A stretch of DNA of 33,787 bases, from positions 1-33,787 of the forward strand of contig VGEV01000024.1 of assembly GCA_016869175.1 (NCBI GenBank), given 5' to 3'. The position numbers and the translations under genes were made by a program. Origin of the DNA: Alphaproteobacteria bacterium (GTDB lineage Bacteria > Pseudomonadota > Alphaproteobacteria > GCA-2731375). The notes below the pieces were generated by a model that saw only the letters and a list, made by a program, of their open reading frames with translations, did no database searches and was not told the DNA's origin. This document shows, in pieces, positions 5,842 to 33,787 of the stretch. Position 1 is the stretch's first letter, and each line of letters begins with the position of its first letter.

Positions 5842-5892
5842 GCCGCCCTCCTGTCGCGGCCGGCCAGACACCCCGGCCGGCAAGGCCGGCGA

Positions 5893-5921
5893 TCAATCGT
5901 CGCCCCTCGGCCGGCTGTCAA
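5893..5921 (-). promoter_or_regulatory. Candidate promoter for the serC operon
   Basis: A perfect -35 hexamer TTGACA lies on the minus strand at 5921-5916. The hexamer 17 bases downstream (GATTGA, 5898-5893) is a poor match to the -10 consensus, so only the -35 is convincing. It sits about 50-80 bp ahead of the serC start at 5841, inside the 175-bp divergent gap. Confidence 0.35.
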
Positions 5922-6016
5922 TCCCTTCATTTGTCGCATTGCAGCATCAGACCGATGGTTGACTTGTCCGGCGCCACCCCTGACATGAACGGCGGCTCCA
6001 GCCGGGAGGACGGCCA

Positions 6017-7150
6017 ATGATCCTATGCCAGCGCCACCTGTTCGACCTGCCGGAGGAGGTGGCCTATTTCAACTGCGCCTACATGTCGCCGCTGCTGAAC
6101 AGCGCGGTCGCCGCCGGCCGCGAGGCGGCGGCGCGCAAGGCGCAGCCCTGGCGGATCACGACACCGGACTTCTTTTCCGGCCCCGAGCGTGCCCGAGAGC
6201 TGTTTGCCCGGCTGATCGGCGCCGCGGCGGGCGATATCGCGCTGGTTCCCGCGGCCAGCTATGGCCTCTCGGTCGCGGCCGCGAACCTGAAGCCGCCCGC
6301 CGGCAGCCGAATCCTGTTGCTGCAGGACCAGTTCCCCTCCAACGTCTATGTCTGGCGCAAGCTGGCGACCGAGCGGGCGGCGGATCTGCTGACGGTGGCC
6401 CGGCCGCCCGACGGCGACTGGACCCAGGCGATCTTGGCGGCGCTGGACGACAGCGTTTCGTTGCTCGCTCTGCCGCACTGCCACTGGACCGATGGCGGGC
6501 TGATCGACCTCGCGCGGATCGGCGGCCGCGCCCGCGAGGTCGGTGCCGAACTGGTGCTCGACCTGACTCAGTCGGCGGGCGCCCTGCCGTTTGATGTGCG
6601 GGACGTGCAACCGGCCTTCGCCGTCGCCGCCACCTACAAGTGGCTGCTTGGCCCTTATTACTGCGGCTTCCTCTATGTCAGCCCGCGCTACCAGGACGGG
6701 CGGCCCATCGAGTTCAACTGGATCGCGCGCGCCGGCAGCCAGGATTTCGCGCGCCTGGTCGACTACCGCGAGGACTTGCAGCCGGGTGCTCGGCGCTTCG
6801 ATGTGGGCGAGGGCGCCAATTTCGGCCTGTTGCCGGTCGCGACGGTGGCGTTGGAGCAGCTCAACGCCTGGGGTGTGCCGGCGATCCAGGCGAGCCTGCG
6901 GGGGTTGACGGACCGCATCGCCGAGCGGGCCCAGGAATTGCAATTGCGGGCGGCACCGCGTGACTTGCGGGCCGGCCACTTTCTCGGGCTGCGCCTGCCG
7001 CAAGGCGGTGCCAGCGACCTGGCCCGTCGGCTCGCGGCGGAGAACGTGCATGTCAGCGTGCGCGGCGACGCCATGCGGGTTACCCCGCATCTTTACAACA
7101 ACGACGCCGATATCGACCGGCTGTTCGGCGCGCTGCATCGGGCGCTTTGA
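6017..7150 (+). CDS. Class V aminotransferase-fold PLP enzyme (first of tandem pair)
   Basis: This 377-residue product has the class V aminotransferase / cysteine-desulfurase-like fold. The PLP-binding Asp is in LVLDLTQSAGALP (D182) and the Schiff-base lysine in AATYKWLLGPYYCGF (K208). A late RVTPHLYNNDADIDR segment is the usual C-terminal substrate-arm motif. Family members include isopenicillin N epimerases, kynureninases and lyases acting on amino acids. The context lacks desulfurase partners and no mobile-loop cysteine is obvious, so a desulfurase role is not favoured. The start has GGAGG about seven bases upstream. A second paralogue follows seven bases after the stop, then a DHDPS-family lyase, likely one transcript. 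The substrate is unknown. Confidence 0.85.
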   Translation: MILCQRHLFDLPEEVAYFNCAYMSPLLNSAVAAGREAAARKAQPWRITTPDFFSGPERARELFARLIGAAAGDIALVPAASYGLSVAAANLKPPAGSRILLLQDQFPSNVYVWRKLATERAADLLTVARPPDGDWTQAILAALDDSVSLLALPHCHWTDGGLIDLARIGGRAREVGAELVLDLTQSAGALPFDVRDVQPAFAVAATYKWLLGPYYCGFLYVSPRYQDGRPIEFNWIARAGSQDFARLVDYREDLQPGARRFDVGEGANFGLLPVATVALEQLNAWGVPAIQASLRGLTDRIAERAQELQLRAAPRDLRAGHFLGLRLPQGGASDLARRLAAENVHVSVRGDAMRVTPHLYNNDADIDRLFGALHRAL

Positions 7151-7157
7151 GCCGGCG

Positions 7158-8339
7158 ATGACCGCGAACCTCGATCTCGCCCGTGCGCGGGCCGAAACGC
7201 CAGGTGTCGGCCACGTCGTGCACCTCAACAATTGCGGCGCTGGGCTGATGCCCGAGCCGGTGCTGCGTGCCCTGACCGAGCACTTGCGCCTGGAAGCCGA
7301 GATCGGCGGCTACGAGGCGGCGGAACGGCGCGAGGACGCGGTCGAGGCCACCTACGACGCCCTCGCGCGCCTGCTCAATTGCCGGCCCGAGGAGATCGCG
7401 GTGGTCGAGAATGCCACGGTCGCCTGGGACATGGCGTTCTACGGCCAGCGTTTCCGCGCCGGCGACCGCATTCTGACCGCGATGGCGGAATACGCCTCCA
7501 ACTATATTGCTTTCCTGCAGATGGCGGAACGCACGGGCGTCGAAGTCGTCGTCGTGCCGAACGACGAAAGCGGGCAATTGGATGTGGCGGCGCTCGCCAA
7601 CCTGCTGGATGCGCGCACGAAGCTGATCGCCGTCACCCATGTGCCGACCAACGGCGGGCTGGTCAATCCAGCGGCCGCGATCGGCCGCTTGGCGCGGGCC
7701 GCCGGCGTGCCCTTCCTGCTGGATGCCTGCCAGTCGGTCGGCCAGATGCCGATCGACGTCGAGGCGATCGGCTGCGACATGCTGTCGGCCACGGCGCGGA
7801 AGTTCCTGCGCGGTCCGCGCGGCGTCGGTTTCCTCTACGTGCGCCACGCCATGCTGGATCGCCTGTCGCCGCCCTTCCTCGATCTGCATGCCGCCACCTG
7901 GACCGCGCGCCATCGCTACACGCTGCGGCCCGACGCGCGGCGCTTCGAGAACTGGGAGAACTACATCGCCGGAAAGCTCGCGCTGGGTGTGGCGGCCGAC
8001 TACGCGCTCGGCTGGGGTCTGCCGGCGATCTGGTCTCGCGTGCACGCCCTGGCGGAAGACTTGCGCCAACGGCTCGCCGGCTTGCCCGGCGTGACGGTGC
8101 GCGATCTGGGCCGCCTGCGCTCCGGCATCGTCAGCTTCCAGGCGGCGGGCCGGGATCCGCTGGCGCTGAAGGCGGCGCTCGCCAAGGAAGGCATCAACAT
8201 CTCCACCACCTCGGTCGCTTCGACCCGGCTCGACATGGAGGCCCGCAGCATACCCCTGATGAACCGGCTGGGCGTGCATTACTACAACAGCGAAGACGAA
8301 CTGGAGCGGTTTGTCGGCGCCCTGCAACGGCAGCTCTGA
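7158..8339 (+). CDS. Class V aminotransferase-fold PLP enzyme (second of tandem pair)
   Basis: This 393-residue product is a second class V PLP enzyme, distantly related to its upstream neighbour. The PLP Asp is in FLLDACQSVGQMPID (D189) and the lysine in SATARKFLRGPRGVGFLY (K215). That stretch is typical of the isopenicillin-N-epimerase-like subgroup. The C-terminus has NRLGVHYYNSEDELERFV. I start it at the ATG at 7158, seven bases after the previous stop, because the protein then opens with a normal family N-terminus (LNNCGAGLMPEPVL); the frame is open further upstream only as a shadow of the previous gene. The two proteins differ around the active-site lysine, so they may act on different substrates or as a hetero-oligomer. 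Function is unassigned. Confidence 0.85.
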   Translation: MTANLDLARARAETPGVGHVVHLNNCGAGLMPEPVLRALTEHLRLEAEIGGYEAAERREDAVEATYDALARLLNCRPEEIAVVENATVAWDMAFYGQRFRAGDRILTAMAEYASNYIAFLQMAERTGVEVVVVPNDESGQLDVAALANLLDARTKLIAVTHVPTNGGLVNPAAAIGRLARAAGVPFLLDACQSVGQMPIDVEAIGCDMLSATARKFLRGPRGVGFLYVRHAMLDRLSPPFLDLHAATWTARHRYTLRPDARRFENWENYIAGKLALGVAADYALGWGLPAIWSRVHALAEDLRQRLAGLPGVTVRDLGRLRSGIVSFQAAGRDPLALKAALAKEGINISTTSVASTRLDMEARSIPLMNRLGVHYYNSEDELERFVGALQRQL

Positions 8340-13678: not shown

Positions 13679-15880
13679 TCAGAGGAAAGTGTAGGGATCG
13701 ACGTCGACCTGCACGCGCACGCCGCCCGGCGGCCGCCCCGCCGCCAGCCAGCGCCGGGTCAATTCAGAGGCATTGGTCTGGCGGGGCGTTTTCAGCAGCA
13801 GACGGAAGCGGAAACGGCCGCGCAGCAGGCTGAGCGGGGCCGGCGCCGGCCCCAGCACCACGATGCCAGGTCCCCCGGGCGCGGCTGCCACCAAGGCGCG
13901 CGCGGCCCGCGCGGCGGCCGCTTCATCGGCGCTGGAGACGATCAGCGCCACCAGCCGGCCGAAGGGCGGCATACCCGCTGTCCGGCGGGCGGCCTTCTCG
14001 CGCGCAACGAAGCCGTCGCGGTCGCCGGCGATCAGCGCCTGCATCACCGGGTGTTCCGGCATGTAGGTCTGCAGCAGCACACGGCCCGGTCGGGCCTCGC
14101 GTCCGGCACGGCCGGCCACCTGGTGCAGCAATTGATAGGTGCGTTCGGTCGCTCGCAGATCGCCGCCGGCCAGTCCCAGATCGCCGTCCACCACGCCGAC
14201 CAGCGTCAGGCGCGGAAAGTGATGGCCCTTGGCCACCATTTGCGTGCCGACAATGACGTCGATCTCCTGGCGCTCGACCCGACCGACCAGTTGGGCGATC
14301 GCCTCGGGCCCGGCCATCGTGTCGCTCGCCACCACCTCGGCGCGCGCTGCGGGGAAGAGCGCCCGCACTTCTTCCAGCAGCCGTTCGACGCCAGGGCCGC
14401 AGGCGGCGAAACGGTCCTCCGCGCCGCAGGCGGGGCACGCCGCCGGCAATCGCGTGTCGTAGCCGCAATGGTGGCACATGAGCCGGCCGTGGAAACGATG
14501 CTCGACCAGCCAGGCCGAGCAGTTCGGGCATTGCAGGCGATGGCCGCAGGCCCGACACAAGGTGAGAGGCGCATAGCCGCGGCGATTGAGGAACAGCAGC
14601 GCCTGTTCGTTGGCCTGAAGCGTCGCCGCCAGCGCCTCGACCAGCCGCTTCGACAGCCACGCTCCGCGCGGCGGCGGCTCGCGGCGCAAGTCGATCGCCT
14701 CGACGCCGGGCAGGCCGGCGCCGCCGAAGCGCTCCGGCAGGTGCAGCCGGGCGTAGCGGTCGGCGTCGACATTGACCAGCGTCTCCAGGCTGGGCGTGGC
14801 CGAGACCAGCACGACCGGCAGTGCGGCCAGTTGCGCCCGCACGATCGCCATGTCGCGAGCATGATAGGCAACGCCGTCGTCCTGCTTGTAGGCATGCTCG
14901 TGCTCCTCGTCGACGACGACGAGGCCGAGTTTTGGAAAAGGCAAGAACAGGGCCGAGCGCGCGCCCACCACGACCCGCGCCTCGCCCTCCGCCACCCAGC
15001 GCCAGGCGCGCCGCCGCTCGGCCGTCTTCAACTCCGAATGCCAGGCGATGGGGGCGACACCGAAACGCGCCGCGAAGCGCTGCAAGAAACCCGCCGTCAA
15101 GGCGATCTCCGGCAACAGCACGAGCGCCTGCCGTCCCGCCGCCAGCGCCGCGGCGACGGCCTCGAAATAGACCTCGGTCTTGCCCGAGCCGGTGACGCCG
15201 TCCAGCAGCGCGACGCTGAAGCCGCCGGTCCGCACCCGCTCGGCAAGCGCGGTCGCGGCCGCTTGCTGCGCCGGTTCCAGCCGCGCGCCCGGCCGTTGCC
15301 AGTCCGGCCTGGGCGGCAGCGGCAGCGGCAGCGGCACGACGTCCAAGGCACCGCAATCCCGCAAGCCGTGCACCACGGACGGCCCGACATCGGCCAGCTC
15401 GGCCAATTCGGACGCCGTGCGCGCCAGGCCATCGGCGGCGATTCGCAACACCCGCTCGCGCGCCGGCGTCAGCCGGGCGGGCGCGCCGGAAGCCGGCCGC
15501 AGCCCCAGGCGCGCCGTCTCGGGCTCGAGCGCCGCATTGACCCTGAGGCACATCCGCAGGACGGCGCCGGGCGCGCTGACAGTATAGGCCGCCATCCAGT
15601 CCACGAAGCGGCGCATCGCCGTCGGCATCGGCGGGATGTCGAACTTTCGCAGCACCGCCTTCAGCTTCTCGCGCGCCACTGCGGGTGCGGCACCTGGCGA
15701 CGCGTCCCAGACGACGCCCGGCACCGCGCGGCCCGCCAGCGGCACGGCGACATGTTCGCCCGGCATCAGCGCCATGCCCGCTGGCACCAAGTAGTCGAAG
15801 GCGCCATGCAGCGGATAGGGCAGCAGCACCGCGACGCGCCCGGTCGCGGCAGGCTGCGAACTGGCGCGTTCATTCCCCAT
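13679..15880 (-). CDS. priA: Primosomal replication-restart helicase PriA
   Basis: PriA recognises stalled forks and reloads the replicative helicase. The 733-residue product has an N-terminal DNA-binding region ([16 protein letters not shown]), Walker A GVTGSGKT (228-235), the DEEH box in [16 protein letters not shown], and a zinc-binding insert with eight cysteines beginning [13 protein letters not shown] and ending CPACG. Later come the helicase motifs [16 protein letters not shown] and the QVAGRAGR motif VI. All catalytic motifs look intact. It is divergent from the transaldolase gene (59-bp gap) and convergent with the DRE-TIM gene, with only four bases between stops. An in-frame ATG about 35 codons in is an alternative start, but the upstream residues are conserved in the family. 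Confidence 0.96.
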
Positions 15881-19806: not shown

Positions 19807-22059
19807 CTAGCGACCGCAGTCGGGTATCCGGAACGGCGTTGGATCGAGGAAGCGGCGCAACACGTTTGCAGTGAGCCGCGCGATATTGTTGTCGAAGTTG
19901 TTGCTGCCCAGGCTGCCGGCATAGGCGATGGAGCCGGTGGAGAATACCGCGCCGCCGCCAGCGGTTTCGAAGAACACCAGGTCGGCCCGCACGCGCGGGT
20001 TCTGCACCCCGTCGGTGGCGCCGTGCGCGACGGCGATTTCCTCGGCGACCAGTTGATAGACGTTGGAATGGTTTTCCGAACTCGCCAGCACCAGCGCATG
20101 CGGTGGCGAGCCCAGGCCGGCATCGTAGCAGTCCAGTTCCAAGCCGGCGGCGCCGCCCTGCAGCATGCCGAAATCGCCCAGCAGTTCGCCGTCGATCCCG
20201 TCGAACACAAAGGCGGCCCGCGGGTCCCGACTTTGTGGCGTGCGGCGGTAGGGCGTTGAAGCGTCGAATCCCTGGCTGATGAAGCCGACGCCGGCCAGCA
20301 GGTTGGGCGGCCGGCCCTGGCGGCGCCACAGGCCGCCATATTCGCCGTCGAAGCTGTGATAGTATTCGCCCACCTCGGCGATCCATGCGCGCGTGCCGTC
20401 TTCCGCGCGGCGCACCTCGATGATGCCCGGCTGCTGCGGGTGATAGGCGATGCGCCAGTAGAAGCCGTTGCCGCCCAGATACATCAGCCGGCCGCCGCCG
20501 CGTGTGAACGCGTCGAGCGCATCCAGCATCGCGCCCGAGAAATATTCCGGATGGCTGCCGGTCACCAGGCAGCGATAGGGCCGCAGGATGCCCAGTCCCT
20601 CGCGGTGCAGGTCCTCGTCGGTGATCACATCGAACGGCTCGCCGCTGCGCGACAGCCAGTCGACGACGAACATGTCGGCGCAGTAGTTCCACAGCCGACC
20701 CTTGGGCCTGACGTTGGTCGCCGGCCTGAGCCGCGAACTGTAGCAGACGCCGCTGCCATCGCGGTGCCGGTCGTAGGTCGACAGGCCGAGTTCGGGATGC
20801 TTCAACAGCAACTCGTCGGTTGCATCCAGCACGGTCAGCCGGCCGTGATGCAGTTCCGGCGTGCCGGTGAAGCGGCCCAGGTTGTTGGTATAGACCGTGT
20901 AGGTGGCGGTTGAGGCGAGGTAGACCAGTTTCGCCACCGACTGGCCCCGGCTCGGCCGCACGAAGAACGGCACGTGAAACTCAGCCTCGCCGGCGCGGAG
21001 CCGCACAGTATAGCAGCCGCTCGGCAAGTCTTGCGGCACCGGGAACTCGAGGTCCGGCAGCCAGCATGCATCCGCCAGGTCGTCGTCGTGGAAGTGGATG
21101 GCGCCATACTCCCGCGGCGCCTTGAGCCAATGCATCTCATGTCCGCGCCAGTTGTGGCCGGTCACCGCGCGGGTCGGCAGATTGACCGTCACGCCGTCCA
21201 GCCGGTTGGGCGACAGGTCGCGGATCCGCTCGCTGGCGATATCGGCGGAGAAATCCCAGGCTGCCACCATGGCGGCTTCCAGGCCGCTTGGCGGTGCGTC
21301 GCCGGCCAGCGCCAGTGCCTCCGCCTCGCTCAGCGCACGCCGGCTGAGCCGGGGGCTGTCGAGCTTGCCGTTGAAGAAGCCGCCGGCCCGCAGGCCGCCG
21401 CCAGGCGTCGGCCGGGCCACGTCCTCGACATGCCAGGCGGCGAACAGAAACGGCCCCGGCCGAACCAGATGCTCCACGTCGGTCTGCGCTTCGGCGCTCA
21501 CCCGGCGCGCTGGGTGGAAGCTCTTGTCGGCGAGCGGTTGCTGCAACAGATGCAGCCGGCCGCTCGCGGCATCGAAGCTGGCGGCAAGGAAATACCAGCG
21601 GCGCGCGTAGAGCGGGATGTCGGTCGACAGCCGGCCGATCCGCCCCTTGCCGTCGCCCAGCAGCACTTCCGGTGCGCCGGCCTCGTTCAGCACCAAGGCG
21701 AAGCCCGAACGGCTTGCCGCCGACCACGTGCCGGCCAGCCCCTGCCGACCCTGGCCGGGCAAGGTCGGGTAGACGTAAAGCGACAGCGTGAAGCTCTCGC
21801 AGGCGGCAAGTTCGGGCGATGGCGGCACCAGGGCGAACGAGCCGATCTCGATCGGCTGGCGGCGCGCGGGGTAGTCGCGGTTGACCGGATTGGCCACGAC
21901 TTCCTCGCGGAATGGCGGATGGTCCGGCCCCGCCTCGGCACTCAGCACGCGCACGATGTCGCAGCGGAAGGCATCGGCGCCCAGGCAACTCACCATGACG
22001 CGCAGCGTATCGCCCGGCGCCAGCGATTGCGGATCGCAATAGCCCATCAGATCGGTCAT
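19807..22059 (-). CDS. N,N-dimethylformamidase-like large (beta) subunit
   Basis: This 750-residue protein matches the size and layout of the large subunit of N,N-dimethylformamidase, which hydrolyses dimethylformamide to dimethylamine and formate. A lectin-like (LamG) region covers about 70-270, with FTLSLYVYPTLPGQG and WYFLAASFDAASGRL. A C-terminal catalytic region follows from about 300. The known enzyme has a mononuclear iron held by two tyrosines and one glutamate. Good candidates here are Y387/Y390 in STATYTVYTNN, Y429 or Y440, and E505 in VTGSHPEYFSGA; this assignment is inferred. AAGGAG precedes the ATG. The small-subunit gene lies 19 bp upstream. The true substrate may be another amide; the symbol dmfA2 would be by analogy only. 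Confidence 0.82.
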   Translation of the reverse strand: MTDLMGYCDPQSLAPGDTLRVMVSCLGADAFRCDIVRVLSAEAGPDHPPFREEVVANPVNRDYPARRQPIEIGSFALVPPSPELAACESFTLSLYVYPTLPGQGRQGLAGTWSAASRSGFALVLNEAGAPEVLLGDGKGRIGRLSTDIPLYARRWYFLAASFDAASGRLHLLQQPLADKSFHPARRVSAEAQTDVEHLVRPGPFLFAAWHVEDVARPTPGGGLRAGGFFNGKLDSPRLSRRALSEAEALALAGDAPPSGLEAAMVAAWDFSADIASERIRDLSPNRLDGVTVNLPTRAVTGHNWRGHEMHWLKAPREYGAIHFHDDDLADACWLPDLEFPVPQDLPSGCYTVRLRAGEAEFHVPFFVRPSRGQSVAKLVYLASTATYTVYTNNLGRFTGTPELHHGRLTVLDATDELLLKHPELGLSTYDRHRDGSGVCYSSRLRPATNVRPKGRLWNYCADMFVVDWLSRSGEPFDVITDEDLHREGLGILRPYRCLVTGSHPEYFSGAMLDALDAFTRGGGRLMYLGGNGFYWRIAYHPQQPGIIEVRRAEDGTRAWIAEVGEYYHSFDGEYGGLWRRQGRPPNLLAGVGFISQGFDASTPYRRTPQSRDPRAAFVFDGIDGELLGDFGMLQGGAAGLELDCYDAGLGSPPHALVLASSENHSNVYQLVAEEIAVAHGATDGVQNPRVRADLVFFETAGGGAVFSTGSIAYAGSLGSNNFDNNIARLTANVLRRFLDPTPFRIPDCGR

Positions 22060-23002: not shown

Positions 23003-23332
23003 ATGTCGACCACCGCGAAGCCGCGGGTGCGGGTGCCCAAGAGCGTCAAGCGGGGCGAGGCTTTCGAGATTCGCACGCTGATCACCCATCCCATGGAATC
23101 CGGCCAGCGCAAGGACGACAGCGGCAAGACCATTCCCCGCAAGATCCTCAACAAGTTCGTCTGCACGCTGGATGGCGAGATGGTCTTCACGGCCGAACTG
23201 GCGCCTGCGGTCGCGGCCAACCCGTATCTCGCGTTTTTCTGCCGGGCCGAGAAAAGCGGCACCCTGAGATTCGCCTGGACCGACGACGACGGCACGGTGA
23301 TCGTCGAGGAAGCGGCCGTGAACGTGGCCTGA
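23003..23332 (+). CDS. soxZ: Thiosulfate oxidation carrier complex protein SoxZ
   Basis: SoxZ forms the heterodimer with SoxY that presents the sulfur-carrying arm to the other Sox enzymes. The 109-residue immunoglobulin-fold protein shows the family signatures RVRVPKSVKRGEAFEIRTLI, THPMESGQRKD and GTLRFAWTDDDGTV. It has no signal peptide, as is usual: SoxZ is exported by riding on the Tat signal of SoxY. AGGAGG lies about six bases before the ATG at 23003. It sits between soxY (11-bp gap) and soxB (seven-bp gap). Confidence 0.96.
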   Translation: MSTTAKPRVRVPKSVKRGEAFEIRTLITHPMESGQRKDDSGKTIPRKILNKFVCTLDGEMVFTAELAPAVAANPYLAFFCRAEKSGTLRFAWTDDDGTVIVEEAAVNVA

Positions 23333-23339
23333 GCCAGGC

Positions 23340-25019
23340 ATGCTCGGGCGCCGCGAGTTCCTGGCCTTCGCGGCCGCCGTGGCGGCCAGCCTGGGGATGC
23401 CGGGGCTTGCCCGCGGCCAGCGCCAGGCGATCGACCAGGAGGCGCTGTTAGGGTTCCGGCCGCTCGGCCAGGTGACGCTGCTGCATTTCACCGACCTGCA
23501 CGCGCAGCTCGTGCCGCTGCATTTCCGCGAGGCGGCGGTCAACATCGGCCTGGGCGACTTGGCCGACCGGCCGCCGCGGCTGGCTGGCCGTCGCCTCATC
23601 GAACGGCTGGGCCTGGCACCCGACAGCCTGGAAGCCTACCTCCTGGGAAGCGACAATTTCGCGGACCTGGCCAAGAGCTTCGGGCCGATCGGCGGCCTCG
23701 ACCGTCTGGCCACCCTGGTCGCCGCCATCCGCGCCGAACGAGCGGAACGCGTCCTGCTGTTCGATGGCGGCGACAGTTTCCAAGGCGCCTATACCACGCT
23801 GGCGAGCGCGGGCGCCGACCTGCTGCAGGCGCTCAACCTGCTGCGTCTCGACGGCATGACCGGGCATTGGGAGTTCACGCTGGGCGAAGCGCGCTGGCGC
23901 GAGATCGTGGACGCCCTGAACTGCCCCTTCCTGGCCGGCAATGTGCGCGAGCGGGATTTCGAGGATCCGGTGTTCGAAGCCTCCCGCGTGTTCGAGCGCG
24001 GCGGGCTTGCGATCGGCGTGATCGGGCAGGCGTTTCCCTATACCCCCATCGCCAATCCGGCCTGGCTGATTCCCAACTGGACCTTCGGCATCCGCCACGA
24101 GGCCTTGCGCCAGGAGGTGGCGCGGCTGCGCCAGGCCAAGGTCGACCTGGTGGTGCTGCTCAGTCACAACGGCTTCGATGTCGATCACAAGCTGGCGCGT
24201 CTGGTGCCTGGCATCGACGTGATCTTGTCGGGCCACACGCACGATGCCTTGCTGGAACCGGCGGTGGTCGGCCAGACGTTGATCGTGGCCTCGGGATCGC
24301 ACGGCAAGTTCCTCTCCCGCCTCGACCTCGACATGCGGGGCGGGCGCATCGCCGAGTGGCGCTATAGGCTGATCCCGGTGCTGGCCCAGGCGATCGCCCC
24401 CGATCCCGGCATGGCCAAGGCCATCGCCGAACTCCGTGCCCCGCACGCCGCGCGCCTGGCCGAGCCGGTTGCGCGCACCGAGACGCTGCTCTACCGGCGC
24501 GGCAACTTCAACGGCACGGCGGATGACCTGATCTGCGATGCGCTGCTGGCGGAACTCGATGCCGAGATCGCCTTTTCGCCCGGCTTCCGTTGGGGGGCTA
24601 CGCTATTGCCCGGCCAGGACATCACGCTGGAAGATGTCTACAGCCTGACCGCGATCAGCTATCCCGGCACGACGCGGCGGCAGCTGAGCGGCCGGCAGAT
24701 CAAGGCGATCCTTGAGGATGTGGCGGACAACCTGTTCAACCCCGATCCGTTCTACCGGCAGGGTGGCGACATGGTGCGGACCGGGGGCCTGGGCTTCCGC
24801 ATCCGGCCCGCGGCGCCGATCGGTCAACGCATCGACGAGCTGCGCTTGTTGGCGAAAGACGAACCGCTGGCCGCCGACAAGAGCTACTGGGTGGCCGGCT
24901 GGGCGCAAGTAGCCGAACCGGCCGCCGGCGAGCCGGTCTATGATGTACTGCTGCGCTATCTGCGGCGCCAAGGGACGGTGCGGGTGGAAGAGCGCCGTGC
25001 GGTGCGGATGGCGGTCTGA
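23340..25019 (+). CDS. soxB: Thiosulfohydrolase SoxB
   Basis: SoxB is a dimanganese periplasmic enzyme that removes the terminal sulfone of SoxY-bound intermediates as sulfate. The 559-residue product has a Tat-type signal (GRREFLAFAAAVAASLG). Metal-site motifs of the 5'-nucleotidase-like domain follow: HFTDLHAQ (D52, H54), FDGGDSFQGA (D145), TGHWEFT (H176, E178), LLSHNGFDVDHK and LSGHTHDALL. The C-terminal substrate domain contains YSLTAISYPGTTRR. The usual DTWQGS segment reads DSFQGA here. It starts seven bases after soxZ with a weak Shine-Dalgarno, so translational coupling is likely. GHWEFT instead of GNHEF separates SoxB from ordinary 5'-nucleotidases. Confidence 0.95.
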   Translation: MLGRREFLAFAAAVAASLGMPGLARGQRQAIDQEALLGFRPLGQVTLLHFTDLHAQLVPLHFREAAVNIGLGDLADRPPRLAGRRLIERLGLAPDSLEAYLLGSDNFADLAKSFGPIGGLDRLATLVAAIRAERAERVLLFDGGDSFQGAYTTLASAGADLLQALNLLRLDGMTGHWEFTLGEARWREIVDALNCPFLAGNVRERDFEDPVFEASRVFERGGLAIGVIGQAFPYTPIANPAWLIPNWTFGIRHEALRQEVARLRQAKVDLVVLLSHNGFDVDHKLARLVPGIDVILSGHTHDALLEPAVVGQTLIVASGSHGKFLSRLDLDMRGGRIAEWRYRLIPVLAQAIAPDPGMAKAIAELRAPHAARLAEPVARTETLLYRRGNFNGTADDLICDALLAELDAEIAFSPGFRWGATLLPGQDITLEDVYSLTAISYPGTTRRQLSGRQIKAILEDVADNLFNPDPFYRQGGDMVRTGGLGFRIRPAAPIGQRIDELRLLAKDEPLAADKSYWVAGWAQVAEPAAGEPVYDVLLRYLRRQGTVRVEERRAVRMAV

Positions 25020-25041
25020 GGGGGCAGGCAGGAGGCATGGG

Positions 25042-26289
25042 GTGAGCGGGCGCGGACGCAATCGACGGGGTTTCCTGGCGGCGGCGGGCGGCGTGTTGGG
25101 CGCGGCCGGCTTGGCGCCTGTGCTGCGCGCGGCCGAGTTCAAGCCGGAGGCGCCGGACTGGACCAAGAATCTGGGGCCAGGCGTCGACGCGGCGCCCTAT
25201 GGCAAGCCCAGCCCGCACGAGAAGCATGTCATCCGCCGCTCGGTCGAATGGCTGACGGCGACACCGCAATCCTCGGTCAATTTCACGCCGCTGCACGAAC
25301 TGGACGGCATCGTCACGCCGAACGGGCTGTGCTTCGAGCGCCATCATGCCGGCGTGCCCGACATTCCGCCGGCCGAGCACAAGCTGCTGGTGCACGGCTT
25401 GGTCGAACGGCCGCTCAAGTTCAGCATGGCCGAACTGCGACGCTTTCCGCCGACCAGCGTGTTCCATTTCCTCGAATGCGCGGCCAACGGCGGCATGGAA
25501 TGGCGCGGCGCGCAGTTGAACGGCGTGCAATACACGCACGGCATGCTGCATTGCGTGCAGTATACCGGCGTGCCGCTGCGCCTGGTGCTGGAGGCTGCCG
25601 GCCTCAAGGGCCAGGCCAAATGGCTGCTGCTGGAAGGTGCCGACGCGGCGGCGATGACCCGCAGCCTGCCGCTGGCCAAGGCGCTCGACGACTGCCTGTT
25701 GGCCTATTCGATGAACGGTGAGCGGCTGCGCTCCGAACAGGGCTATCCGCTGCGCCTCGTCGTGCCGGGCTGGGAAGGCAACATCTGGGTCAAGTGGCTG
25801 CGCCGCATCGAGTTGGGCGACCAACCCTGGCAAACGCGCGAGGAAACCGCGAAATACACCGACCTGATGCCAGACGGACGCGCCCGCCGCTTCACCTGGC
25901 TGCAAGAGGTGAAGTCGGTCATCACCGACCCGGCCCCGGAAGCGCGCCTGGCGGGCAAGGGCTTTCGCTGCATCAAGGGGCTGGCCTGGTCGGGCGAGGG
26001 CCGCATCGCGCGGGTCGATGTCTCGCGGGACGGCGGCCGCAACTGGACGACGGCGCGGCTGGAGCCGCCGGTGCTGCCGAAATGCCTGACGCGCTTCTAT
26101 CTGGATTGGCAATGGAGCGGCGAGGAAGTGCTGCTGCAAAGCCGCGCCATCGACGAGAAGGGCTTCGTGCAGCCGAGCCCGGCGGTCCTGCAAAAGACGC
26201 GCGGTGTCAATCCGATCTACCACAACAACGGCATCCAGACCTGGGCGGTCAATCGCGATGGCACGGTGGAGAACGTTCGCCTGGGTTAG
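25042..26289 (+). CDS. soxC: Sulfane dehydrogenase molybdopterin subunit SoxC
   Basis: SoxC is the molybdenum-cofactor subunit of Sox(CD), which oxidises the SoxY-bound sulfane sulfur. The 415-residue product belongs to the sulfite-oxidase family. A Tat signal (RRGFLAAAGGVLGAAGLA) is followed by the cofactor domain with the molybdenum-ligand cysteine C146 in FHFLECAANGGMEW, then VVPGWEGNIWVKWLRRIE. A C-terminal dimerisation domain carries RVDVSRDGGRNWT and NHG-like HNNGIQTW near the end. I start at the GTG at 25042: AGGAGG lies eight bases upstream, while the nearby ATG at 25034-25039 is out of frame. It overlaps soxD by 32 bases. Confidence 0.95.
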   Translation: MSGRGRNRRGFLAAAGGVLGAAGLAPVLRAAEFKPEAPDWTKNLGPGVDAAPYGKPSPHEKHVIRRSVEWLTATPQSSVNFTPLHELDGIVTPNGLCFERHHAGVPDIPPAEHKLLVHGLVERPLKFSMAELRRFPPTSVFHFLECAANGGMEWRGAQLNGVQYTHGMLHCVQYTGVPLRLVLEAAGLKGQAKWLLLEGADAAAMTRSLPLAKALDDCLLAYSMNGERLRSEQGYPLRLVVPGWEGNIWVKWLRRIELGDQPWQTREETAKYTDLMPDGRARRFTWLQEVKSVITDPAPEARLAGKGFRCIKGLAWSGEGRIARVDVSRDGGRNWTTARLEPPVLPKCLTRFYLDWQWSGEEVLLQSRAIDEKGFVQPSPAVLQKTRGVNPIYHNNGIQTWAVNRDGTVENVRLG

Positions 26290-26887
26290 CCTGCTGCTGG
26301 CGGCGGGCGGCGCGGCGGCTCAGCCGGCGGGTCTTGGCCTGGGCCGCCCGGCGACGCCAGCGGAGATCGCCGCCTGGTCGATCGCCGTGCGCCCCGACGG
26401 CCAGGGCCTGCCGGCGGGCAAGGGCAGCGTGGCCGAGGGCGAGCAGCTTTATCTGCAACACTGCGCTGCCTGCCATGGCGAGTTCGGCGAGGGCGCCGGC
26501 CGCTTCCCGGCGTTGATGAGCGGCCAGGGCAGCCTGCGCGACCACGACCCGGTCAAGACCATCGGCAGCTACTGGCCCTATGCCACCACCGTTTGGGACT
26601 ACGTCTTTCGCTCCATGCCGTTTGGCAATGCGCAGAGCCTGACCGCCGACGAGACCTATGCCGTCGTCGCCTACCTGTTGCATCTGAACGACGTGGTGGA
26701 CGCCGATTTCGTGGCCGACGCCAAGCGCCTGCCGGCGGTGCGCCTGCCCAATGCCGCGGGCTTCTTCGAACTGGCCGAGCCCGACCTGCCGCGGGGCGAG
26801 CCGTGCATGCGCGATTGCGCCGTCTCGACCAGGGTGATCGGCCGGGCGAGAGCGATCGACGTGACGCCCGAGCGGCGCCTGGAATAG
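26258..26887 (+). CDS. soxD: Sulfane dehydrogenase cytochrome c subunit SoxD
   Basis: SoxD takes electrons from SoxC and passes them to the respiratory chain. The 209-residue product has a Sec signal (FAWVSLLLAAGGAAA), one c-type heme motif CAACH (69-73) and a likely axial methionine in FRSMPFGNAQSL (M120). This is the shorter, monoheme form; the Paracoccus protein is longer with a second heme domain. A C-terminal pair of cysteines (CMRDC) could form a disulfide. The start at 26258 overlaps soxC by 32 bases and gives a proper signal peptide. No soxA or soxX follows; the next gene is 226 bp away beyond a repeat element. Confidence 0.92.
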   Translation: MARWRTFAWVSLLLAAGGAAAQPAGLGLGRPATPAEIAAWSIAVRPDGQGLPAGKGSVAEGEQLYLQHCAACHGEFGEGAGRFPALMSGQGSLRDHDPVKTIGSYWPYATTVWDYVFRSMPFGNAQSLTADETYAVVAYLLHLNDVVDADFVADAKRLPAVRLPNAAGFFELAEPDLPRGEPCMRDCAVSTRVIGRARAIDVTPERRLE

Positions 26888-26924
26888 GCGCGACAGGCCG
26901 TCTTGCGGTTGGCCGGCGGGGGTG

Positions 26925-27053
26925 TCCGATCAGAGGGATCGCGACCAGCGAGCCCTCGGATCGGAGCCCACCGCGCTGCACTCATGGTTGCAGGGCAATG
27001 GCTTGCAGTGAAACCGAACATGCCAATTCGATTTGTACGGAAATTGCCCTAGT
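26925..27053. repeat. Two-hairpin intergenic repeat, copy A
   Basis: This 129-bp stretch is about 80% identical by hand alignment, with three single-base gaps, to 33446-33577. Its first palindrome pairs 26926-26937 with 26953-26964, giving a 12-bp stem with one central mismatch. A second, weaker one pairs 27011-27018 with 27027-27034 (AAACCGAA / TTCGATTT, seven of eight). Both stems recur at the same places in copy B. The copy fills most of the gap between soxD and the fccA-like gene, ending 60 bp before the latter. It is like two-palindrome intergenic elements known in rhizobia, but I cannot claim identity. Confidence 0.8.
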
Positions 27054-27113
27054 ATTCGCGGCCCGCGGCCAACGCGGGCGGCAAGGCAAGACGACAACAC
27101 CAAGGGGGGAGCG

Positions 27114-27410
27114 ATGCGAAAATCCGCCATCCTGGCGGGGCTGGTTCTGGCCATGCCCTTCGCCGCGTCGGCGCAGTCGGTGACGCCGACGCAAGTGATG
27201 GCCGCGACCTGCGCCGGCTGCCATGGCAGCGAACTGACCGGAGCCGGCGGCGTGCCCAGCCTGAGGGGTCAGCAGAAGGACTATCTCGAACGCACGCTCA
27301 ACGACTTCAAGTCCGGCCAGCGTCCGGCCACGGTGATGAACCGCTTGGCCAAGGGCTACAGCCCCGAGCAGATCGCCGAACTGGCGCAATACCTTGCTGG
27401 CCTGAAGTAG
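27114..27410 (+). CDS. Flavocytochrome c sulfide dehydrogenase, monoheme cytochrome subunit
   Basis: The 98-residue product has a Sec signal (ILAGLVLAMPFAASA) and a single c-type heme motif CAGCH (33-37), with the axial methionine in ATVMNRLAKGYS (M75). Such small cytochromes partner with the flavoprotein encoded nine bases downstream, accepting electrons from sulfide oxidation; they are named FccA or SoxE. The ATG at 27114 has a purine-rich GGGGGGAG site about four bases upstream. The gap from soxD (226 bp, with repeat copy A) suggests a separate promoter for this pair, though none is clear. Confidence 0.88.
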   Translation: MRKSAILAGLVLAMPFAASAQSVTPTQVMAATCAGCHGSELTGAGGVPSLRGQQKDYLERTLNDFKSGQRPATVMNRLAKGYSPEQIAELAQYLAGLK

Positions 27411-27419
27411 GAGGGAGCC

Positions 27420-28703
27420 ATGGGACGCATCGATCGACGCGGATTTCTCAAGTTGGCCGGCGCAACGACCTTGGCAGGCGCGGTTGGCGCGCCCTATGTG
27501 GCGCGGGCGCAAGCGGCGCCCAAGGTGGTGATCGTTGGCGGTGGCTTCGGCGGTGCCAGCGCCGCCAAGGCCCTGCGCCGCTGGGCGCCCAGCATCCAGG
27601 TGACGCTGGTCGAGGCCAAGCGCAGCTTCGTCACCTGCCCCTACAGCAACCTGGTGCTGGCGGGTTGGCGCACGATGGAACAGATCACCTTCGGCTATGA
27701 TGGCCTTGCCAAGGCCGGCGTCACCATGGCGCATGACACCGCAACGGCGATCGACGCCGCCGGCAAGACCGTGAGCTTGGCCGGCGGGCAGAGCCTTGCC
27801 TATGACCGGCTGATCGTCTCGCCCGGCATCGACATCAAGTGGGGTGCCATCTCCGGCTATGACGAAGCGGCGGCGCAGAAGATGCCGCATGCCTGGCTGC
27901 CGGGCGAGCAGACCGTACTGCTGCGCAAGCAGCTCGAGGCGATGCCGGACGGCGGCGTGGTGATGATGGCGATCCCGGCCAACCCGTTTCGTTGCCCGCC
28001 CGGCCCCTACGAGCGCATCTCGATGATCGCGGCCTATCTCAAGCAGGCCAAGCCGAAGTCGAAGCTGATCGCGCTCGATGCCAAGGACGCCTTTTCCAAG
28101 AAGCCGCTGTTCGAGGACGGCTGGAAGAAGCTCTATGGCGACATGGTGGAATGGGTGGCGCTGTCGAAGGATGGCCAGGTGAGCAAGGTCGATCCGGCGG
28201 CGATGACGCTGGAAACCCAGCTCGGCACGGTGCACAAGGCAGCGGTCGCCAATGTGATCTGCCCGCATTACGCCGGCCGGATCGCCCGCGACGGCGGCCT
28301 TGCCGACGGTTCCGGCTGGTGTCCGATCGACGCGCGCACGTTCGAATCGAAACTGATCAAGGACATCCACGTGATCGGCGATGCCACCATCGCCGCGCCG
28401 GCGCCGAAGTCCGGCTTCGTTGCCAACAGCATGGGCAAGGTGGCGGCGGCTGCCGCCATCGACATGCTGGCCGGCCGCGAGCCGTCCGCCAAGACCTGGG
28501 TCAATACCTGCTACAGCCACATCGCCAAGGACTATGCCATCTCGGTCGCCGGCGTGTTCAGCGCCGACGCCAATGGCGCGGTGGTGGAGATCAAGGACTC
28601 TGGCGGAGTGAGCCCGCGCGAAGCGGCCGACGAATTCCGCCGGCAGGAGGCGATCTACGCCGATAGCTGGTACGACAGCATTACCAAGGATACCTGGGCC
28701 TAG
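27420..28703 (+). CDS. Flavocytochrome c sulfide dehydrogenase, flavoprotein subunit
   Basis: This 427-residue flavoprotein (FccB/SoxF type) oxidises sulfide to sulfur with covalently bound FAD. It has a Tat signal (RRGFLKLAGATTLAG), an FAD dinucleotide motif VVIVGGGFGGASAAK (36-50) and FVTCPYSN with C73. Removing a 31-residue signal puts C73 at 42, the position of the FAD-linked cysteine in the characterised enzyme. Cysteines in NPFRCPPGPYER and GSGWCPID can form the redox disulfide. A late FAD motif VIGDATIAAPAPKSG and a C-terminal helical domain complete the family layout. It is co-transcribed with the cytochrome subunit (nine-bp gap). Confidence 0.92.
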   Translation: MGRIDRRGFLKLAGATTLAGAVGAPYVARAQAAPKVVIVGGGFGGASAAKALRRWAPSIQVTLVEAKRSFVTCPYSNLVLAGWRTMEQITFGYDGLAKAGVTMAHDTATAIDAAGKTVSLAGGQSLAYDRLIVSPGIDIKWGAISGYDEAAAQKMPHAWLPGEQTVLLRKQLEAMPDGGVVMMAIPANPFRCPPGPYERISMIAAYLKQAKPKSKLIALDAKDAFSKKPLFEDGWKKLYGDMVEWVALSKDGQVSKVDPAAMTLETQLGTVHKAAVANVICPHYAGRIARDGGLADGSGWCPIDARTFESKLIKDIHVIGDATIAAPAPKSGFVANSMGKVAAAAAIDMLAGREPSAKTWVNTCYSHIAKDYAISVAGVFSADANGAVVEIKDSGGVSPREAADEFRRQEAIYADSWYDSITKDTWA

Positions 28704-30192: not shown

Positions 30193-30210
30193 GATCGAGG
30201 CCGCGGTTTC

Positions 30211-30226
30211 TAACGAGCGCTCGGTA
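30211..30226. promoter_or_regulatory. Probable TetR-type operator upstream of the monooxygenase/P450/TetR genes
   Basis: TAACGAGCGCTCGGTA is a 16-bp palindrome with seven of eight pairs matching. Its core CGAGCGCTCG and outer A/T bases are the style of TetR-family operators. It ends seven bases before a perfect -35 hexamer (30233-30238), upstream of the LLM oxidoreductase start at 30298. A TetR gene ends the same run of genes, so self-regulation is a natural inference. Confidence 0.55.
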
Positions 30227-30232
30227 GATTTC

Positions 30233-30238
30233 TTGACA
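30233..30238 (+). promoter_or_regulatory. -35 box of the monooxygenase/P450 promoter
   Basis: A perfect TTGACA lies 60 bp before the start of the LLM oxidoreductase gene and just downstream of the TetR-like palindrome. The expected -10 region (about 30256-30262) is GC-rich and unconvincing, as is common in such genomes. Confidence 0.45.
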
Positions 30239-30297: not shown

Positions 30298-31413
30298 ATG
30301 CATGTCGGAATGAGCGCCTTTTTCCAGAACGTCGTGCCGGGCATGAGCGACCGCGAGGTCTATGTGCACGAGGTCGGCCTGGCCGACATGGCCGAACCGC
30401 TGGGCTTCGACAGCATTTGGTCGGCGGAGCATCATTTCGACAACTACACCATGTGCCCCAATGTGCTGCAGTTCCTGACCTACATGGCCGGGCGCACCAG
30501 GCGCGTGGGGCTCGGCTCGATGGTGGTGGTGATCCCCTGGCATGATCCGCTGCGCGTGGCGGAGGAAGTCGCGGTGCTCGACCACCTGTCCGGCGGCCGC
30601 GTCATCCTGGGCATCGGCCGTGGCCTCGGCCGCATCGAGTTCAACAATTTCCGCCTCAACATGGGCGAGAGCCGCGAACGCTTTGTCGAGTACGCCGAAG
30701 CGATCCAAATGGGGCTGGAAAAGGGCTTTGTCGAATACGACGGCAAGTTCTTGCGCCAGCCGCGCGCACAGATCCGTCCGTTTCCGTTCAAGAGCTTCAA
30801 GGGACGCATGTACGCCGCCGCGGTGTCGCCCGAATCGGCCCGCATCATGGCCCGGCTGGGCATCGGCATCCTGATCATCGCGCAGAAGCCGTGGGACAAG
30901 ACCGAGGCGGAAGTGCGCATGTACAACGACATCTACCGCGAGATGCATGCCGGCGCCGAACCACCCAAGCCGATCATCGCCAGTTTCGTTGCGGTCAACG
31001 AGGACGCCGCGCTGGCCAAGGACATGCTGGAGAAATACATCCGGCGTTACTCCCGCTCGGCGCTGGAACACTACGAGTTCCACAACGAGGGATTGGCCGA
31101 CATCAAGGGCTACGAGTACTACGCCGGGCTGGCCAAGAACATCAACAAGCACGGCGTCGAGACGTTCGTGAACTTCCTGGCGGATCTGCAGGTCTATGGC
31201 ACGCCGGACCAAGTTTATGCCCGCATGGCGGACTATCAGAAACGCGTGAACGCCGGCGGCTATCTCTGCATGTTCAGCTATGGCGGCATGCCGCATGCGC
31301 TGGCCCGGCAAAACATGCTGCTGTTCGCCGACAAGGTGCTGCCGCGCCTGAAGGCGTTGGCGGTCGACGAAGTGATCGGTGCCGGCAAGCCGTTGTCGAT
31401 CGCCGCCGAATAG
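30298..31413 (+). CDS. LLM-class flavin-dependent oxidoreductase (luciferase-like monooxygenase)
   Basis: This 371-residue TIM-barrel protein belongs to the bacterial luciferase-like family, which uses reduced FMN or F420 to oxidise small molecules. It shows GFDSIWSAEHHFDNY, VGLGSMVVVIPWHDPLRVAE, LDHLSGGRVILGIGRGLGR and ESRERFVEYAEAI in order, the standard signature series. GGGAGAG precedes the ATG by about five bases. It starts a probable operon with the P450 and TetR genes, 22 bp and 77 bp apart. Its flavin reductase is not adjacent. The substrate is unknown; some relatives cleave C-N or C-S bonds. Confidence 0.9.
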   Translation: MHVGMSAFFQNVVPGMSDREVYVHEVGLADMAEPLGFDSIWSAEHHFDNYTMCPNVLQFLTYMAGRTRRVGLGSMVVVIPWHDPLRVAEEVAVLDHLSGGRVILGIGRGLGRIEFNNFRLNMGESRERFVEYAEAIQMGLEKGFVEYDGKFLRQPRAQIRPFPFKSFKGRMYAAAVSPESARIMARLGIGILIIAQKPWDKTEAEVRMYNDIYREMHAGAEPPKPIIASFVAVNEDAALAKDMLEKYIRRYSRSALEHYEFHNEGLADIKGYEYYAGLAKNINKHGVETFVNFLADLQVYGTPDQVYARMADYQKRVNAGGYLCMFSYGGMPHALARQNMLLFADKVLPRLKALAVDEVIGAGKPLSIAAE

Positions 31414-31435: not shown

Positions 31436-32698
31436 ATGGATCGCGAGACACCCACGGCGGCGCGGTCGGCCGGCAAGCCGAGTTGCCCGTTCGACAGCAC
31501 GGCGCCCGGCTTCGCCGCCGATCCCTATCCCACCTATCGCCGCCTGCGCGAGCACGCGCCCATCGTCTGGAGCGAGGAACTCAAGGGCTGGCTGGTGACC
31601 GGCTACGACACCGCCCAACAAGTGCTGAAGCACGATCATGCGTCGGTCGAGAAACTGGCGCCCTACATGGCGCATATCTCGGAGGAGGAACGGCGCGAGG
31701 TGGCGCCGGTCAACCGCCTTCTGGCCGACTGGATGGTGTTCAACGATCCGCCCAGGCACAGCCGGTTGCGCGCCACTTTCGGGCGCGCCTTTCTTCCGCA
31801 TGAGGTGGAGCGGATGCGGCCGCGCGTGCGCCGGGTGGTGTCGGGGCTGATCGACGTCCTGAAGGGCCGCGAGGAGATCGAGTTCATTCGGGACTTCGCC
31901 TTTCCCTTGCCGGCCTACGTGATCACCGACCTGTTCGGCATCGCGCAGCGGGAAGCTCCGCTCTTGCGCGACTGGTCGAACGATCTCGCGCGTTTCGTGT
32001 TCCGTGCGCCGGCCAGCCGCGAGCGCAACCGACGCGCCTCGGCAGCGGCGGTCGAGATGAGCGCATTCTTCCGCCGGCATGTCGAGGCAAGGCGCGGCCA
32101 GCCGCCGCAAGGCGACCTGATGGACTTGCTGTTGCAGGCGAGCGAGGGGCCGGACGCGCTGAGCCTGGACGAACTCAACGCCACGCTCGTCTTCCTGCTG
32201 TTCGCCGGCCATGAAACGACCATGAACCTGCTCGCCAATGGCCTTTACTGGCTGTTGCGCAGGCCGGCGGCGATGGCCCGGCTCAAGGCCGAACCGGCAC
32301 TGGTGACGCGGGCGGTGGAGGAGTTCCTGCGGTTCGAGGGGCCGGCGCATACCATGGTGCGGCTGGCGGCCGTCGACTTCGCGGTCGCCGGGCAGGCGAT
32401 CGCCAAGGGTGAGCGGCTGTTCATCAGCCTGGGCGCCGCCGACCGTGATCCGGCCCGCTTCGCCGACGCGGAGAACCTGGACATCGCCCGCCGCGGCAAC
32501 CAGCACATCGCCTTTGGCTTCGGCATACATTTCTGCCTGGGCGCGCCGCTGGCGCGCCTGGAGGCGCAGGAGGCCTTCGGGCAGTTGCTGCGCCGCTTTG
32601 CCTCGTTCGAGATGACGGGCGGCGAACCGGAATGGCACGAGGGCCTGGTGGTGCGCGGCATGCGCTCCCTGCCGCTCAAGGTGCGCATTGCCGACTGA
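31436..32698 (+). CDS. Cytochrome P450
   Basis: This 420-residue soluble bacterial P450 inserts oxygen into an organic substrate using heme and electrons from ferredoxin partners. The I-helix oxygen-activation motif is LLFAGHETTMN (258-262 core), the K-helix ExxR is E296-R299 in EEFLRFEG, and the heme-ligand cysteine is C367 in FGFGIHFCLGAPLAR. All are intact. No ferredoxin or reductase gene is in the window, so it relies on redox partners encoded elsewhere. The ATG at 31436 has GGGGAGG about eight bases upstream; the open frame before it overlaps the end of the LLM gene. It is probably co-transcribed with the LLM oxidoreductase and controlled by the TetR gene that follows. Confidence 0.95.
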   Translation: MDRETPTAARSAGKPSCPFDSTAPGFAADPYPTYRRLREHAPIVWSEELKGWLVTGYDTAQQVLKHDHASVEKLAPYMAHISEEERREVAPVNRLLADWMVFNDPPRHSRLRATFGRAFLPHEVERMRPRVRRVVSGLIDVLKGREEIEFIRDFAFPLPAYVITDLFGIAQREAPLLRDWSNDLARFVFRAPASRERNRRASAAAVEMSAFFRRHVEARRGQPPQGDLMDLLLQASEGPDALSLDELNATLVFLLFAGHETTMNLLANGLYWLLRRPAAMARLKAEPALVTRAVEEFLRFEGPAHTMVRLAAVDFAVAGQAIAKGERLFISLGAADRDPARFADAENLDIARRGNQHIAFGFGIHFCLGAPLARLEAQEAFGQLLRRFASFEMTGGEPEWHEGLVVRGMRSLPLKVRIAD

Positions 32699-32725
32699 GC
32701 GCGATGGCGCGGGCGGCGGAGGGCC

Positions 32726-32791
32726 GCGCTGCCGCGCGGCACCCCCGGCCAGATCCAGCGCCACGAGGTGGAGAAGTGGCTGAAGGCGTGA
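32726..32791 (+). pseudogene. C-terminal remnant of an acyl-CoA synthetase
   Basis: This frame reads ALPRGTPGQIQRHEVEKWLK, one more Ala, then stop. It closely resembles the last residues of AMP-dependent acyl-CoA synthetases, whose conserved end is LPRTPTGKIQR followed by a charged helix. The catalytic lysine of that motif is glutamine here. The upstream sequence (32699-32725) does not continue the family, so only the tail survives, probably after a deletion. Its stop overlaps a GTG (GTGA) at the TetR start region, the arrangement of an operon. Twenty-one residues are little to go on. Confidence 0.5.
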
Positions 32792-33438
32792 GCATCCGCC
32801 CCAGGAACGGCAAGGGCGAGGCGGCGACCGCCGCCTTCGGGCAGGCCAAGCCCGGCAAGTCGGCCGCCACCCGTCAGCGCATCCTGGACGTCGCCGCCGC
32901 CACCTTCCTGCGCAAGGGTTACGCGGCCACCACCCTCAACGACATCGCCAAGGCTTCCCGCTTGCGCGCCGCCAGCCTCTACTACCATTTCGACAGCAAG
33001 GAGCAGTTGCTCGACGTCGTGCTGCTGACCGGCGTCGAGCGGCTGTTCCAGGCGGTGCGCCAGGCCGTGGAAGCCGTGCCGCCGGAAGCGAACCGCCTGG
33101 CCCGGGTGGAAGCCGCGATCGGCGCGCATCTTGCCGTGCTGATCGAGGGCGGTGACTACACCTCGTGCGCCATGCGCATCTTCGGCCAACTGCCCCCTGC
33201 CGTGCAGCGCCGGCAGATGCCGCGGCGCGAGGCGTATGGCGAATACTGGCGGACCTTGCTGGCGGACGCGGCGGCGGCGGGCGAACTGCGTCCGGACCTC
33301 GACCTCAGTCTCGCGCGCATGTTCCTGTTCGGCGCACTCAATTGGACGCCCGAGTGGTTCAAACGCGGCCGCGGCGCCACTGCCGCCGCCGCCCGGCAGC
33401 TGTCGCGGCTGTTCCTCGCGGGCCTGGCCCGCGACTAG
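32776..33438 (+). CDS. TetR/AcrR family transcriptional regulator
   Basis: The product is 220 residues. The N-terminal helix-turn-helix domain has TRQRILDVAAATFLRKGYA and the recognition part LNDIAKASRLRAASLYYHFD, which is the TetR signature; the C-terminal part is a helical ligand-binding domain. The start is uncertain. GTG at 32776 has GAGG seven bases upstream and is preferred; GTG at 32788 overlaps the stop of the CoA-ligase remnant. The open frame further upstream is a shadow of the P450 gene. It probably represses the LLM-P450 operon through the palindrome at 30211-30226. Repeat copy B begins eight bases after its stop. Confidence 0.88.
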   Translation: MAEGVSIRPRNGKGEAATAAFGQAKPGKSAATRQRILDVAAATFLRKGYAATTLNDIAKASRLRAASLYYHFDSKEQLLDVVLLTGVERLFQAVRQAVEAVPPEANRLARVEAAIGAHLAVLIEGGDYTSCAMRIFGQLPPAVQRRQMPRREAYGEYWRTLLADAAAAGELRPDLDLSLARMFLFGALNWTPEWFKRGRGATAAAARQLSRLFLAGLARD

Positions 33439-33445
33439 CACGGCT

Positions 33446-33577
33446 TCCGATCGGATGGCATCGCGATCCGCGAGCCGTCGGATCGGCGCCCACCGCGCCG
33501 CCGGCATGGTTGCGGGGGCAATGGCTTCGCTTCAAACCGAACCGGCCGGTTCGATTGCAACGGAAATTGTCCCTAGT
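33446..33577. repeat. Two-hairpin intergenic repeat, copy B
   Basis: This 132-bp copy aligns along its full length with 26925-27053, and flanks differ on both sides. The first palindrome pairs 33447-33459 with 33474-33486 (13 bp, one mismatch at the same central place as copy A plus one G-T pair). The second is a perfect 16-bp palindrome CGAACCGGCCGGTTCG at 33538-33553, extended by further pairs. The element begins just after the tetR stop and its far end supplies the stop codon of a thioesterase remnant on the minus strand. Confidence 0.8.
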
Positions 33578-33706: not shown

Positions 33707-33787
33707 ATGAGGGCATGGCCTGCGGCCCAGCCTGCGGATTGGGTGCTGTGGCGGGGTCTATTTGGTCTGCGGTGGCGTGTCGATGCA
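33707..33787 (+). other. Open frame running off the right edge, unidentified
   Basis: From an ATG at 33707 the frame is open for 27 codons to the window end. It is Trp-rich (MRAWPAAQPADWVLW) and I do not recognise it. There is no good ribosome site. The minus strand is also open across part of this stretch. It may be the start of a gene or chance; the stretch from about 33665 does not match its neighbours and could be part of another mobile element. Confidence 0.15.

Follow-up and report, generated by a model that had tools for sequence, protein, structure and literature searches.

How did a short stretch resembling the end of an acyl-CoA ligase gene come to stand directly in front of a tetR gene, and what might it say about the ligand of the TetR protein? 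The locus lies towards the end of the window, by which we mean the whole stretch of DNA analysed here (33,787 nucleotides of an alphaproteobacterial draft genome). On the plus strand, a gene for a luciferase-like monooxygenase (Bac_luciferase; 30298–31413), the first gene of a presumed operon, is followed by a cytochrome P450 gene (31436–32698; 420 residues, stop at 32696–32698) and by tetR (32788–33438), whose product carries TetR_N and TetR_C_24 domains, both above their curated cut-offs (56.9 versus 24 bits and 67.4 versus 26.4 bits, respectively). The P450 is not visibly truncated, and its relative in Bradyrhizobium (407 residues) has a similar end. Between the P450 gene and tetR lie a 30-base spacer (32699–32728, plus strand) and the stretch in question (32729–32791, plus strand), made up of 20 codons and a TGA. 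Elsewhere the window holds a set of sulfur-oxidation genes (23003–28703) that encode SoxZ, a 5'-nucleotidase-C protein, which we take to be SoxB, two cytochromes c and a flavocytochrome c sulfide dehydrogenase, and on the minus strand (19807–22059) a gene for a protein with an N,N-dimethylformamidase beta-like C-terminal domain.

The codons in front of tetR match one ligase subfamily

Read in the frame of the P450 gene, positions 32729–32788 give LPRGTPGQIQRHEVEKWLKA, and the longer interval 32699–32788, which is open throughout, gives ARWRGRRRAALPRGTPGQIQRHEVEKWLKA. The reading ends at TGA (32789–32791), which overlaps the GTG start of tetR (32788–32790) to form GTGA, in agreement with the overlap described in a first-pass annotation of this DNA. 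A 19-column profile was built from the C-termini of 29 members of one ligase subfamily (several of them near-identical) and searched against six-frame translations of the window and of the fetched loci (2.65 million residues). The remnant matched it with E 8.4e-7 (29.3 bits), while the next match outside such ligases reached 12.7 bits (E 0.13); the subfamily had been chosen as the best-matching one, which amounts to a factor of about 25 and leaves the conclusion unaffected. The six frames of the window contain 593 stop-terminated ends that are 19 residues or longer; on a simple weight matrix the remnant scored 39.4 and the runner-up among them 2.0. Single full-length relatives matched the tail at E values from 1.3e-4 to about 0.16, and a Pfam scan of the 30-residue peptide gave no match. 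A profile made from the other ligases of the genome did not match the tail significantly (E 4.9), which argues against a generic ligase likeness and for one that is specific to a subfamily.

The likeness extends to the DNA. An intact ligase gene of another genome (L237), which lay outside the profile and whose product carries AMP-binding and AMP-binding_C domains, ends FPRSTTGKIQRHEVEKWL; the remnant is 90% identical to it over 50 bases (E 1.4e-10), with 28 of 30 bases identical under IQRHEVEKWL. Over the full 60 bases the identity to this gene is 50, compared with a median of 40 across 37 ligases of the type. From 32729 on, all third codon positions of the tail frame are G or C, and the codon score of 32729–32788 is +0.64 bits per codon in that frame versus −1.15 and −1.13 in the others (−1.13 in the tetR frame). 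In the spacer, by contrast, the tail-frame score is negative. Judged by these matches, the remnant is the 3' end of a gene for an acyl-CoA ligase (adenylate-forming, FadD-like). The resemblance to acyl-CoA synthetase C-termini that was first proposed by eye thus holds, at both the protein and the DNA level, and is narrower than supposed.

Within the source genome itself (3.97 Mb), 38 AMP-binding_C matches were found at E 0.001, 37 of them above the cut-off, a number that gives the impression of being high for a genome of this size taken by itself. Reading frames were obtained for 24 of the 30 of these loci that were fetched, and among those 24 the best match to the tail was the intact ligase L156 on contig C60 (62% over 21 residues). 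This gene was considered as a donor, but it shares only 42 of the 60 bases with the remnant, so a recent copy is unlikely.

The A10 motif of adenylate-forming ligases is Px4GK.x(R/K), a pattern taken, like the role of its lysine, from an excerpt of PMC8388817. In the remnant the position of this lysine is occupied by Q, whereas GK is present in all 31 ligase C-termini that were printed (33 rows, of which two were blank and two were the same gene). The change of the catalytic lysine to glutamine that had been read from the sequence is therefore real in this alignment, and may have come later than the loss of the gene.

The body of the ligase gene is missing

Full-length relatives were compared with the window, and among the best 45 matches there was no convincing ligase stretch besides the tail. 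The best match outside it (E 0.006; 31% over 73 residues) fell inside the gene at 13679–15880 on the minus strand and was judged to be due to chance. Neither the ATP-binding P-loop nor the N-terminal domain of such an enzyme was found in the window. Since no convincing ligase sequence was found elsewhere in the window, the remnant does not belong to a working ligase gene, and the absence of the gene body, as originally noted, was corroborated. Bacterial genomes contain 3' gene remnants, or pseudogene scars, in which the in-frame end of a vanished gene survives as a short piece next to an intact neighbour. The remnant described here is the same in kind and shows nothing unusual; the ligase tail is a real but ordinary gene scar.

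Ligase genes and tetR homologues in other genomes

The first-pass annotation had proposed an ancestral operon in which the ligase gene stood between the P450 gene and tetR and was lost by deletion, and had suggested a comparison of orthologous loci. We assembled 130 loci with tetR homologues (the best 80 of at least 563 from named genomes, together with the best matches from drawn genome sets; some overlap and a few are too short to judge). In none of the 130 did a ligase gene end within 400 bases upstream of the tetR homologue on the same strand, so that an intact ligase–tetR junction was unseen. Likewise, the order P450–ligase–tetR did not occur around relatives of the luciferase-like and P450 genes, most of which were viewed with 1.5 kb flanks. 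At three of the closest tetR homologues (L004, L005 and L018), the neighbour is a divergently transcribed Rieske ring-hydroxylase gene, and no ligase separates the pair. At L018, this Rieske gene is the single gene that separates the tetR homologue (51%) from a relative of the luciferase-like gene (68%). A further locus, L251, combines two ligases with a remote TetR_C_24 relative (23%), and was set aside because its arrangement is not that of the scar.

A looser association was nevertheless seen. Of the 43 distinct genes gathered for ligases of the tail type, nine are preceded by a tetR homologue at a distance of about 4 kb, a count that is not a rate, because most of the other ligases were fetched with short flanks. 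These nine comprise eight Bradyrhizobium loci, fetched through tetR, and one genome (G654) that was reached independently by both searches; where the two are linked, tetR comes first and the ligase follows downstream. Across 398 genomes searched, G654 and the source genome gave the only tetR matches at E ≤1e-45, and G654 was one of two genomes, out of 398 searched, with a ligase match at E ≤1e-140; there the two matches are about 4 kb apart. Enoyl-CoA hydratase and AMP-binding genes adjoin tetR homologues, and in two regions from plasmid records tetR homologues lie among acyl-CoA genes, with no annotated ligase that ends at tetR. A conserved leader that lacks a ligase was not found: among the fetched loci, the tail profile convincingly matches only ligase genes and the window. 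The proposal of an ancestral operon is partly supported: the ligase 3' end and the missing body agree with it, while the order it supposes was met at none of the loci. We regard this history as plausible.

A palindrome shared with tetR homologues heads the gene row

Similar-looking palindromes are present upstream of several tetR homologues. The pattern TCTAAYN8RTTAGA, with at most two mismatches and within −250 to +100 of the tetR start, was found at 17 of 59 distinct loci (at least 40% identity), with two of the 17 sites off register; the background was 9 matches in 412 kb of more distant sequence, 20 times as much. With 59 permuted half-sites, at most 3 of 62 loci were hit (mean 0.5), as against 18 of 62 for the real motif. 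This enrichment is partly circular, as the motif was first spotted in, and the matrix built from, the same loci; the window was left out of the matrix, though its site had been seen at the same time.

In the window, this family palindrome heads the gene row as TCTAACGAGCGCTCGGTAGA (30209–30228), which precedes the luciferase-like gene and lies beside a TTGACA at 30233–30238. The site scores 20.3 bits, the next best in the window 3.1 bits and the highest in 60 random windows 12.0 bits. A looser two-half pattern allowing three mismatches matched the window twice, a count equalled or exceeded in 44 of 100 shuffled windows; the better of these two matches, with one mismatch, is the same site. When the fuller pattern was run over the whole 3.97 Mb genome with at most three mismatches, 30209–30228 was the only match, itself at the three-mismatch limit, and a reversed-pattern control returned no match in those 3.97 Mb. 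We refer to 30209–30228 as the predicted operator.

Sites of this kind also occur in front of some ligases. At loci without a tetR relative (n = 90, 341 kb), two sites of at least 14 bits were found: one upstream of a ligase in G005 (20.4 bits, reached by 0 of 300 shuffles) and one upstream of a relative of the luciferase-like gene in G041 (18.4 bits, reached by 1 of 300). The G041 gene stands beside PaaX, so its site may belong to another regulator. At this locus (L253; G041:C1:38000-52000, positions 4678–7944), the luciferase-like relative points away from the genes for PaaX and a PaaA/PaaC protein, and the operator-like palindrome lies in between. Weaker sites (13.8 bits) precede the estimated ligase start by 43 to 60 bases in G654 and in 6 of the 8 Bradyrhizobium loci. 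Overall, 8 of the 43 distinct ligases of the type have a site of at least 13 bits near their start, and the other 35, including L237 and the intact paralogue of the source genome, have none in the fetched stretch. A perfect 16-base palindrome downstream of tetR, CGAACCGGCCGGTTCG (33538–33553), was also considered as a TetR site and rejected, as it is not the motif of the homologues; a pattern related to it had some match near the homologues' starts at 4 of 62 loci and is not common. A variant palindrome, CCTAACAAGTGTTTGGTAGG, recurs about 0.9 kb before distant tetR homologues at Streptomyces loci such as L043:5155 and L069:5137.

Origin of the remnant

We consider it likely that the remnant is the scar left by an acyl-CoA ligase gene that overlapped the tetR start with its final codons, in a row repressed by TetR and induced by a CoA thioester. 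Deletion or replacement would have removed the body of the gene, with the join probably in the spacer (32699–32728); the retention of the final 20 codons is plausibly explained by the translation start region of tetR, which lies within them. The luciferase-like monooxygenase gene, the P450 gene, the scar and tetR probably form one transcription unit, which TetR would repress from the predicted operator. If the regulator behaves like PaaR, MbdR and KstR2, its inducer would be a CoA thioester, presumably supplied today by a ligase encoded elsewhere.

A possible, though clearly less probable, course of events is that the scar arrived together with tetR: recombination would have put a ligase–tetR end beside an existing luciferase-like/P450 pair, and the ligase would never have stood behind this P450. 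The absence of an upstream ligase end at all 130 tetR loci and of the P450–ligase–tetR order fits this history, as does the downstream position of the ligase in the linked clusters. However, the genome has a single predicted operator, and it stands at the head of the luciferase-like/P450 row, so that tetR and the row look matched; the one-gene distance between the two relatives at L018 also speaks against this history.

A variant of the deletion history, in which only the inside of the ligase gene was deleted, appears doubtful. Five bases past the P450 stop, an ATG (32704) in the tetR frame, which is open from 32632, offers an alternative tetR start and begins a run of eight codons (MARAAEGR) whose third positions are G or C in 8 of 8 cases. 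The ligase itself could once have started with these codons, which would now be joined in-frame to tetR; with only eight codons in a GC-rich stretch, this reading is weak. If it were true, TetR would have a 28-residue N-terminal extension, in which the ligase start is followed by the ligase tail read out of frame, and TetR production would be coupled to translation of the P450.

Very unlikely, in our view, is an assembly chimera in which unrelated contig ends were joined in or beside the ligase tail. In its favour, the draft genome is split into 285 contigs, and the one studied here stops at 33787, about 1 kb past the tail; yet codon usage is similar on both sides of the tail, contamination is given as 0.13, and the predicted operator links the two sides. 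Slightly less credible again is the idea that the stretch serves tetR as a conserved leader or coupling element and only looks like a ligase end. The GTGA overlap, with GAGGTGGAG before the tetR start, makes translational coupling possible, but the fetched loci have no convincing tail of this sort upstream of any tetR homologue, and the remnant DNA matches a ligase gene. That the codons belong to a longer tetR starting at ATG 32704, with an accidental ligase likeness, can practically be dismissed: the tetR frame is indeed open there, but the profile and DNA matches and the codon score, negative in the tetR frame and positive in the tail frame, all run counter to it.

Relation to known TetR regulators and likely ligand

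Three characterised TetR-type regulators invite comparison. PaaR responds to phenylacetyl-CoA (PMC9493321, in part), and its consensus operator is given as CNAACGNNCGTTNG in excerpts of PMC6651687 and PMC9493321; the predicted operator, from 30210, differs from it at 1 of 10 positions, the only such place in the window. Unlike the setting of PaaR, no paa gene was found among the window genes scanned with Pfam. MbdR has 3-methylbenzoyl-CoA as inducer and a regulon that includes a ligase, to whose expression an MbdR-dependent promoter contributes (sections of PMC4424350). It is likewise a TetR regulator, with an aryl-CoA inducer, but its operator, ATACN10GTAT, is unlike the predicted site. KstR2, of steroid-ring catabolism, has as effector HIP-CoA, the product of the co-regulated acyl-CoA ligase FadD3 (portions of PMC5380842). 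KstR2 chains match the TetR protein of the window (P0001) with an E value of about 2e-16, and six other PDB sequences rank ahead of them; here, in contrast to the KstR2/FadD3 system, the ligase is only a scar in the window, and the predicted operator was compared with that of PaaR, not of KstR2. Four NCBIfam families match the protein at E 1e-10, none of them named for PaaR (the library may or may not include a PaaR model) or KstR2, and no NCBIfam model names it above its cut-off.

Because the protein is related to solved TetR proteins and its predicted site is PaaR-like, it may work like PaaR, MbdR and KstR2. As far as sequence can tell, the TetR of this row may sense a CoA-linked acid; the operator likeness and the sites before ligases weakly favour a CoA thioester as its ligand. 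The earlier hint that the ligand is an acyl-CoA, drawn from the tail itself, has thus gained indirect support from the tetR–ligase linkage, the sites before some ligases, the acyl-CoA neighbour genes and the PaaR-like operator, and it is strengthened mainly by the predicted operator.

Scars of this sort reveal which enzymes may at one time have been controlled together. Taken jointly, the scar, the predicted operator and the linkage in other genomes point to a TetR group for acyl-CoA catabolism with a PaaR-like site, and lead to the prediction that this TetR binds 30209–30228 and would be released by a CoA thioester.
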